Part shown: positions 17,413-18,786 of the stretch, piece by piece
Layout of the letters: every line of letters begins with the position of its first letter
How positions within the stretch are numbered: the first letter of the stretch is position 1
DNA from: a virus
Direction: 5' to 3' (one strand)
Length of the DNA: 22,925 nucleotides
Virus record (IMG/VR): IMGVR_UViG_3300037325_000057
Span: 1 to 22,925 of that record
Notes under the pieces: generated by a model
The model's database searches: none
Told to the model about the DNA's origin: nothing
Seen by the model: the letters and a program-made list of their open reading frames with translations, nothing else
Translations under genes and position numbers: made by a program

Positions 17413-17637
17413 ATGAATACAATCCAGACTCGCAAGGTCACATTAAGCAATCGCAAACTCAACAACATTGGCAAAGATTACCAAGACACATTCATTGGAG
17501 TAGATGCAGTGTTCACATCATTTAATGGTGAGCGCACAGTTGGCACAATCACTCACTTCAAAGACAATCGCTTTCCATGTGTGACTTTTGCAGATGGCAC
17601 TTGGTCACGACTTGATCTGACCATTGAACTTGTCTAA
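17413..17637 (+). CDS. Hypothetical beta-rich protein
   Basis: A 74-residue product behind AAAGGGAGA. MNTIQTRKVTLSNRKLNNIG leads into DYQDTFIGVDAVFTSFNGER, then TVGTITHFKDNRFPCVTFAD and GTWSRLDLTIELV. The alternating strands and the 'G.I..F....PCVTFADGTW' layout suggest an SH3-like small barrel. Second gene of the rightward module, 28 nt before the next start. No function can be named. Confidence 0.65.
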   Translation: MNTIQTRKVTLSNRKLNNIGKDYQDTFIGVDAVFTSFNGERTVGTITHFKDNRFPCVTFADGTWSRLDLTIELV

Positions 17638-17665
17638 TCAATCACAAACGAAAAGGGAGAATGAC

Positions 17666-17956
17666 ATGACACAAGCAAGAACAACACTTGTCGCAACAGT
17701 AACATTTTCAACCGAGCGCGCTGGATGGACAATTGATTTCGTAGATGGAGTCAGCAGCACAACAAATGGATCATGGACTGTGCAGAAATATCTTGAAAGA
17801 TTCGCATACTTCAACACGCGATTTCTACTAACAGATGACCTAAACACCATTGACATTTATTCTAGTGCTGTGCTTCCACCATGTGCAGATTGTGCAGCAA
17901 TCAATGGAGAATTCTGTTCAGAAAATTGTGGATCACACTTCTATGATGTCGTATGA
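17666..17956 (+). CDS. Hypothetical protein with Cys-rich C-terminus
   Basis: A 96-residue product starting MTQARTTLVATVTFSTERAG. The ATG at 17666 was chosen because AAAGGGAGA lies 7 nt before it. The N-terminal two thirds are mixed beta (WTIDFVDGVSSTTNGSWTVQ). The end has PPCADCAAINGEFCSENCGS, two CxxC-type pairs that probably form a zinc site. The stop overlaps the start of the C5-methyltransferase gene (ATGA), so both are made together; a helper role for the methylase is possible but unsupported. Confidence 0.65.
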   Translation: MTQARTTLVATVTFSTERAGWTIDFVDGVSSTTNGSWTVQKYLERFAYFNTRFLLTDDLNTIDIYSSAVLPPCADCAAINGEFCSENCGSHFYDVV

Positions 17957-18786
17957 AAGTTGGATCTTTCTTCACTGGTTATGGTGGACTTGATATTGCT
18001 GTTGGTGGGGAACTGCAATGGTACGCAGAGATCGAACCAGCAGCATGTCAAGTGCTTGCAGCGCATTATCCAGATGTTCCCAACCTTGGCGACATGACCA
18101 AGATTGATTGGACATCTGTTCCACCAGTAGACATTCTCACTGGCGGTTATCCATGCCAACCATTCTCACACGCAGGAAACCGAAAGGGAAAAGATGATGA
18201 ACGACACTTGTGGCCTTACGTTAGGTCTGCCATTGATGCGCTTCGACCAAGATACGCAATCCTGGAGAACGTCGCCGGACACCTCACTCTGGGACTTGCC
18301 GATGTCCTCTCCGACCTTGCCAGCATCGGGTACGATGCGGAGTGGGGTACTTACAAGGCGAGCGATGTTGGAGCGCCCCACGGACGGAAACGACTTTTCA
18401 TTGTTGCCCACCCCAACAGTAGTAGACATGGGAAACAACAAGACGCAACAGGAATGGAAAACGTGGACGGACGCTATGCGTTTGAAACACAAGAACGGGA
18501 ACGGTCATGGGCCGTCACTGACACAGGAAGCACTTGGGGCAAGTACGAACCTGCAATCCGACGCTGGGAAGCACTCACACGCGAAGTCCCAGAGCCAACT
18601 GTCCCGCACAAAGACAAGCGCAGACTCAACCCGGCTTTTGTTGAATGGATGATGGGCTTGCCCGCGGGACATGTCACCGGGCATGGACTCAGCGCAGCGA
18701 AAGAACTCAAGATGCTGGGCAATGGCGTAGTCCCACAACAGGCACGTTCAGCAGTGACTCAACTCATGGAAAGGATTACACAATGA
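17953..18786 (+). CDS. C5-cytosine DNA methyltransferase, orphan
   Basis: A 277-residue enzyme that puts a methyl on C5 of cytosine in DNA. Motif I is FFTGYGGLD (6-14), and motif IV with catalytic Cys68 is GGYPCQPFS (64-72). ENV (105-107) is motif VI and GAPHGRKRLFIVA (140-152) motif VIII. NPAFVEWMMGLPAG and KMLGNGVVPQQA form the C-terminal target/AdoMet side. All key residues are present. No restriction enzyme is near, so it likely shields phage DNA. It is coupled to genes on both sides by ATGA overlaps. The target sequence is unknown. From 18197 to 18652 a second frame is open within it. Confidence 0.93.
   Translation: MKVGSFFTGYGGLDIAVGGELQWYAEIEPAACQVLAAHYPDVPNLGDMTKIDWTSVPPVDILTGGYPCQPFSHAGNRKGKDDERHLWPYVRSAIDALRPRYAILENVAGHLTLGLADVLSDLASIGYDAEWGTYKASDVGAPHGRKRLFIVAHPNSSRHGKQQDATGMENVDGRYAFETQERERSWAVTDTGSTWGKYEPAIRRWEALTREVPEPTVPHKDKRRLNPAFVEWMMGLPAGHVTGHGLSAAKELKMLGNGVVPQQARSAVTQLMERITQ
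18197..18652 (+). CDS. Overlapping +1-frame ORF inside the methyltransferase gene ('SWRTS/LLPTPT' protein)
   Basis: A 151-residue frame starting MNDTCGLTLGLPLMRFDQDT. It includes QSWRTSPDTSLWDL, SSPTLPASGTMRSGVL, ERPTDGNDFSLLPTPTVVD and HKNGNGHGPSLTQEALG. These blocks read like a recurrent family of phage hypothetical proteins with 'SWRTS', 'SGxMRxG' and 'LPTPT' motifs (from memory). AAAGGGA (18183-18189) lies 7 nt before the ATG (another ATG at 18194), the same signal used by many genes here. The methyltransferase frame is intact throughout, so this would be true dual coding. Alternatively it is a shadow: motif VIII GAPHGRKR read +1 gives the ERPTDGND block. Confidence 0.4.
   Translation: MNDTCGLTLGLPLMRFDQDTQSWRTSPDTSLWDLPMSSPTLPASGTMRSGVLTRRAMLERPTDGNDFSLLPTPTVVDMGNNKTQQEWKTWTDAMRLKHKNGNGHGPSLTQEALGASTNLQSDAGKHSHAKSQSQLSRTKTSADSTRLLLNG

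Follow-up and report, generated by a model that had tools for sequence, protein, structure and literature searches.

Does the C5-cytosine methyltransferase gene of this virus carry a second gene in its +1 frame and, if so, what would the product do? The window, the whole 22,925-nt virus record analyzed here, also encodes a terminase, a portal, a primase, and an endolysin. Its methyltransferase (alpha; Table 1) matches PF00145 (E 5e-39; 135 bits, cut-off 22) and PHROG_363 (E 1e-72), and the PF00145 catalytic core was confirmed, the invariant PCQ, ENV, R145/R147, and motif IX-X residues all being present. The 110-aa open reading frame (ORF) upstream of it (17624-17956), without a clear family match, shares a 4-nt overlap (ATGA) with the alpha start. 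An earlier note had claimed that the +1 frame is open for about 151 codons from ATG 18197 to TGA 18652, behind an AAAGGGA signal 7 nt upstream that is common to other genes here, and that the product carries the SWRTS, SGTMRSG, ERPTDGND, and LLPTPTVVD blocks of a phage protein family. All of this was borne out. The ORF (beta) is fully nested in the frame-0 ORF 17953-18786, the four blocks are present, and ATG 18194 is a second possible start. AAAGGGA lies 4 nt from ATG 18194 and 7 nt from ATG 18197, and it looks like a ribosome-binding signal of the phage, since the window is enriched in AAAGGRA (13 sites, a number that 0 of 100 shuffles reached, against 4.9 expected). The family is PHROG_1008, in which beta residues 2-120 align to positions 61-178 (E 2.3e-9); Pfam gave no match for the window beta. 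As the note had also proposed, the N-terminal blocks of the family are what methylase motifs VI-VIII give when read in +1.

When the methylase protein was held fixed and its codons were resampled synonymously, 2.6% of the trials left the +1 frame free of stops between 18194 and 18535, and an ATG at the beta start site is expected anyway in 76%. With P near 0.026 for the window alone, the ORF is by itself weak evidence, and the case rests on comparative data. From these data, the reading that we favor, at a probability of roughly 0.75, is that the +1 ORF is a conserved protein-coding gene whose product, beta, serves as the second subunit of a C5-cytosine methyltransferase made of two chains and supplies its target recognition.

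Table 1 Features of the overlapping methyltransferase gene in the window, and unannotated +1 ORFs nested in cytosine methylase genes of other phages
Feature	Sequence	Coordinates	Strand	Remarks
Alpha, C5-cytosine methyltransferase	Window	17953..18786	+	277 aa; frame 0; motifs I-VIII, IX, and X on one chain
AAAGGGA, likely ribosome-binding signal of beta	Window	18183..18189	+	Also encodes RKG of alpha
Beta, +1-frame ORF	Window	18194..18652	+	152 aa from ATG 18194 or 151 aa from in-frame ATG 18197; TGA 18650-18652
Beta N-terminal segment	Window	18194..18415	+	About 70 aa, overprinted on alpha motifs VI-VIII (from alignment); SWRTS, SGTMRSG, and ERPTDGND blocks
Beta variable-region module	Window	18413..18532	+	LLPTPTVVDMG..NGNGHGPSLTQEAL; sole module in the window, relatives have several
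Frame-0 reading of the gap	Window	18409..18534	+	Alpha residues ~153-194; predicted disordered tether at the expected TRD site (pLDDT ~36, residues 158-191); stop-free, whereas the conserved frame is +1
Alpha C block	Window	18535..18786	+	WGKYEPAIRRWE...; read in frame 0 here but in +1 in split relatives; PHROG_1008 positions 214-320
Alpha motif IX	Window	from 18622	+	RLNPAFVEWMMGLP; frame 0, within C block
Alpha motif X	Window	18715-18735	+	LGNGVVP; frame 0, within C block
Unannotated +1 ORF with motif IX-like sequence missing from the long frame	L265, coliphage N15 gene 58	805-1530
Unannotated +1 ORF with motif IX-like sequence missing from the long frame	L266, Salmonella phage SEN5	760-1605
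Unannotated +1 ORF with motif IX-like sequence missing from the long frame	L267, Lactobacillus phage Lc-Nu	859-1410
Unannotated +1 ORF with motif IX-like sequence missing from the long frame	L262, Microcystis phage Mae-JY24	1604-2596

The comparison covered 196 distinct loci, which are partly related, locus counts overstating their independence. In 50 of them (split loci), alpha ends a few codons past motif VIII and beta continues in +1 with its module or modules and motifs IX-X. Another 142 carry alpha and the C block in one ORF, and 4 are of other kinds. With the stretch between motif VIII and the C block called the gap, the one-ORF loci comprise 96 in which +1 is open across the whole gap (M1, the type of the window) and 46 in which it is interrupted (M0). 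The nearest relatives of the window, L009 and L010, are both split, their best alpha segments being 85-87% identical to it, and their +1 ORF starts from the corresponding MMNDT site and runs SWRTS...SGSMRSGE...LPTPTARDYKDT...WGKYEPAIRRWE...motif IX...LGNGVVPQQA. PHROG_1008 (“DNA methyltransferase”, 329 positions) is matched by full beta proteins as well as by the +1 product of the window. Unlike in a full protein of that family, the match of the window is divided between +1 and frame 0, where alpha residues 165-274 take up positions 214-320, and the split relatives explain this division. The proposal of a second conserved +1 frame in the methylase therefore stood, but its product is not an unrelated new protein, being in the relatives the second half of the same methyltransferase. 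Nor are the family members empty frame shadows, since motifs IX-X lie in +1 in 50 loci, and no +1 stop was found in the five nearest relatives. In the record of Rhodococcus phage ReT1v-2 (L001, 1757-2661), the +1 ORF and a C-terminal fragment are annotated and the long alpha frame is omitted, which means that annotation can overlook either chain.

Selection in the gap was assessed by counting differences per frame-0 codon position in independent, non-overlapping pairs of relatives, frame-0 position 1 being the third position of +1. In split loci, the differences at positions 1, 2, and 3 were.376,.112, and.070, with position 1 above position 3 in 13 of 13 pairs. M1 loci gave.288,.100, and.076, the same order holding in 28/28 pairs (sign test 7e-9), and in the C block of the same genes frame-0 position 3 dominates (.37), as expected. 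M0 pairs were mixed, position 3 leading in 7 of 10. Between the window and L089, both single chain, the gap differs at 13/30, 5/29, and 5/29 sites (Fisher p 0.011, position 1 against the rest), a modest comparison (p 0.01-0.05) over a window gap of only 42 codons. After motif VIII, the pattern shows +1 to be the frame under protein-level selection in this locus class, with frame 0 open and otherwise little constrained. The 96 M1 loci hold 0 frame-0 stops in 11,151 gap codons, against the 327 that synonymous resampling for the +1 protein would place there, although the definition of M1 by one ORF builds zero stops into each locus; the split loci hold 554 against 477 expected. Among loci with the C block in the frame of alpha, 1 of 143 is interrupted. 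Since +1 varies at its third positions and frame 0 is free of stops, both frames appear to be used in M1 loci, +1 for its sequence and frame 0 for its continuity. Judged in this way, window-type loci are dual coding, and the suggestion that this locus shows such a state gains support.

The beta start is conserved as well. In the subgroup with the NDERHLW segment, 29 of 31 loci write the D as GAT and thereby form the ATG, where local codon use predicts 11.9 (log10 P -12.7, a figure that overstates independence in these related loci). At other upstream D/N codons of these genes, T is the last base in just 26%. An AAAGG-like sequence precedes most of the aligned starts. In the GTRSG subgroup, beta starts farther downstream, often at a GTG accompanied by a TTAGGGG-like site. 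A drop in synonymous change across motifs VI-VIII, which the note had suggested as a test, proved non-discriminating: third-position changes between the window and L009 number 14/67 there against 70/156 elsewhere, but the drop is similar in the Streptococcus phage control genes, which have their own +1 frame, and it is thus not usable as evidence. These Streptococcus phage C5-methyltransferases (Javan92 type; L263, L269, L270, L272, L300, L305, L308, L311, and L313-L316), chosen as a negative control, have a +1 ORF 150-189 codons long. In all those examined, its end falls exactly 85 nt past motif VIII (...LSDILEVEVDDKYYLSAEKAVAILSNL), and it has no Pfam match. In the 90 nt past motif VIII, most pairs vary chiefly at +1 third positions (10/2/2, 13/5/4, 14/3/6, and 5/1/2), with one mixed pair (8/11/5) and one nearly invariant. 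It is possible that this is a second, unrelated internal frame.

AlphaFold, given the window alpha together with 22 single-chain relatives, returned a model with a mean pLDDT of 84.7. Most of residues 1-155 and 195-277 score above 90, a short loop at 75-78 excepted, the core and C block reach about 95, and residues 158-191 fall to about 36; the best structural match is M.HhaI, with Z 24.6 over both halves. Because of this profile and match, alpha is predicted to be a complete M.HhaI-like catalytic core with a disordered stretch at the target-recognition (TRD) place. At that place the alpha chain has only about 40 residues, at a pLDDT of about 36, a low confidence that is no proof against a fold. 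In frame 0, large hydrophobic residues make up 11% of the M1 gap against 19% in +1, and the conserved sequence at this stretch is that of +1. The model of beta is poor (pLDDT 55, pTM 0.33), so that its TRD role rests on position, and a comparison of the beta profile with solved structures returned one chance-level match (E 0.25).

That role is assigned mainly because the same module sits at the TRD position in frame 0 elsewhere. After its N-terminal segment, beta has one to several modules starting with (L/W)PTP, which recur in varied order and number and differ between close relatives. L041, L042, L043, L096, and L100 carry the module of the window (LLPTPTVVDMG...NGNGHGPSLTQEAL) in alpha itself, read in frame 0 and placed between motifs VIII and IX, and beta probably makes the DNA-recognition part that the enzyme is missing. 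In the M0 loci L053, L063, and L069, beta ends at a module boundary and frame 0 continues with more modules. In L075 (1448-2503) and L098 (2264-3178), beta runs beyond motif X into another LPTP module, as if modules could be added after the C-terminal end as well. In the pairs L034/L035, L070/L071, and L085/L086, the alphas are 86 to 99.8% identical in DNA and the beta module sets differ, which we read as the mark of recent cassette exchange.

The idea that the whole family arose by overprinting survives for its first ~70 residues. A profile of the N-terminal segment, searched in viral and genome contigs with alpha left unused, retrieved 160 loci, all 160 of which overlap a methyltransferase in +1, although such a search can also retrieve untranslated +1 shadows and does not itself show that beta is made in each locus. 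No stand-alone beta gene free of a methylase frame was found among these 160. The result fits, short of proof, a methylase core that is older than the N-terminal segment overprinted on it. No relic of motifs VI-VIII was seen behind the frame-0 look-alikes of this segment in L059 and L096. The idea fails for the LPTP modules and the C block, which also occur in frame 0 and are ordinary methylase sequence rather than overprinted.

In the two-subunit arrangement that we propose, alpha would hold the catalytic core and, in the window, also motifs IX and X, joined through the short disordered tether. Beta would initiate at its own ribosome-binding site inside alpha and comprise the segment overprinted on motifs VI-VIII, followed by the module or modules usual between motifs VIII and IX. 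It would dock on alpha and provide DNA target recognition in trans. We infer that in this phage beta is translated, binds alpha, and is the target-recognition part. One point against is that motifs IX-X, for which split loci cannot do without beta, are absent from the window beta, and this feeds the strongest alternative, that beta is a relic. A split ancestor would have undergone an indel that moved motifs IX-X into the frame of alpha, and the fused chain would work alone beside a dead but undecayed +1 ORF. The split state of L009 and L010, the loss of IX-X, and the single short module of the window beta all agree with this. However, most differences between the window and the single-chain L089 fall at +1 third positions, all 28 single-chain pairs vary in the same manner, frame 0 is open in all such loci, so that the state is long-lived, and the fused chain is without a confidently folded TRD. 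We regard a relic as unlikely, although less so than any other alternative.

It would be considerably less probable that ribosomes translating beta slip back by one base near the WGxY junction and so make a full-length beta with motifs IX-X from single-chain loci too. Single-chain and split loci would then give the same beta, and the +1 ORF does extend past the junction, but it ends at varied distances beyond it, no shared slippery sequence was seen by eye at the junctions, and a fully open frame 0 is not required by such slippage. Just as improbable is a beta that has nothing to do with methylation (for example, an inhibitor of host restriction) and is nested by happenstance. A window-type beta has none of the ten methylase motifs and no Pfam match, but beta carries IX-X in split loci and IX in Sitara-type loci, its modules lie in frame inside single-chain methylases, and it was never found without alpha. 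A chance, untranslated shadow of a conserved methylase, which the resampling figure for the window and the partial dependence of the N-terminal blocks on motif VI-VIII conservation would allow, is very improbable, being rejected for the family by the conserved start, the +1-type substitution past motif VIII, the frame-0 stop counts, and motifs IX-X in +1 in 50 loci, and having a slight chance for the window taken alone.

Two-chain enzymes of this kind have precedents. M.EcoHK31I is a C5-methyltransferase for YGGCCR whose small subunit is encoded out of frame inside the large-subunit gene. Its large subunit holds motifs I-VIII and X, and its small subunit holds IX only (PMC3404938). The window resembles it in layout, with 18194-18652 nested in 17953-18786 and +1 selection in its class, but differs in that both IX and X lie on alpha in frame 0. 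Since these motifs stay on alpha, the window is best classed, on its sequence, as a variant of the overlapping two-subunit type and not as a strict M.EcoHK31I member. The EcoHK31I motif division with an overlapping +1 ORF is found in phages Sitara, Mae-JY24, N15, SEN5, and Lc-Nu (Table 1). In Paenibacillus phage Sitara (SITARA_60, L261 1685-2389), motif IX lies in +1 and X in frame 0, and the product matches PHROG_1008 with E 1.6e-74. Its depositors had already recognized the nested ORF, annotating it as “g59 internal gene”.

M.AquI, which targets CYCGRG, is a second precedent. Its alpha carries motifs I-VIII, and its beta carries the distal variable region and IX-X (PMC3404938). The motif division is that of L009 and L010, with IX-X on beta in all 50 split loci. 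Unlike in M.AquI, beta here starts deep inside alpha in +1, with an overlap of about 200 nt or more, and the window beta is without IX-X. The phage C5-methyltransferases of the SPR / phi3T type are multispecific, with tandem TRDs. As here, several short variable-region modules stand in series in them and come and go among relatives, but the modules of the present loci all begin with (L/W)PTP and often lie in the other frame. The ShiLan domain is an HNH endonuclease lying out of frame within a phage methylase gene that stays open (PMC11855218). It is a mobile insertion, whereas beta lies over the conserved core of the methylase and codes for parts of that enzyme. A prior description of this class was not found in a literature search confined largely to papers free of subscription.

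By the sequence comparisons above, the hidden beta gene appears to recur in many phages and bacteria and to be often overlooked by annotation. For the 96 of 196 loci annotated as ordinary single chains, we see a somewhat better than even chance that the recognition part is a separate +1 subunit of interchangeable LPTP modules and that the visible “variable region” is a stop-free, sequence-free tether. Depending on the lineage, the frame would switch back ahead of motif IX, between it and X, past X, or at the edge of a module, so that the same parts are shared out in different ways between the two overlapping chains. In annotation, cloning, and assays, many C5-methyltransferases of phages and actinobacteria are treated as a single protein. 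If the specificity subunit is hidden in the other frame, clones that lose it would seem inactive or unspecific, and any specificity predicted from the variable region as annotated would carry no meaning. The system is also a large natural data set on overprinting, in which a conserved enzyme core carries a second conserved protein with a frame switch that varies between lineages.
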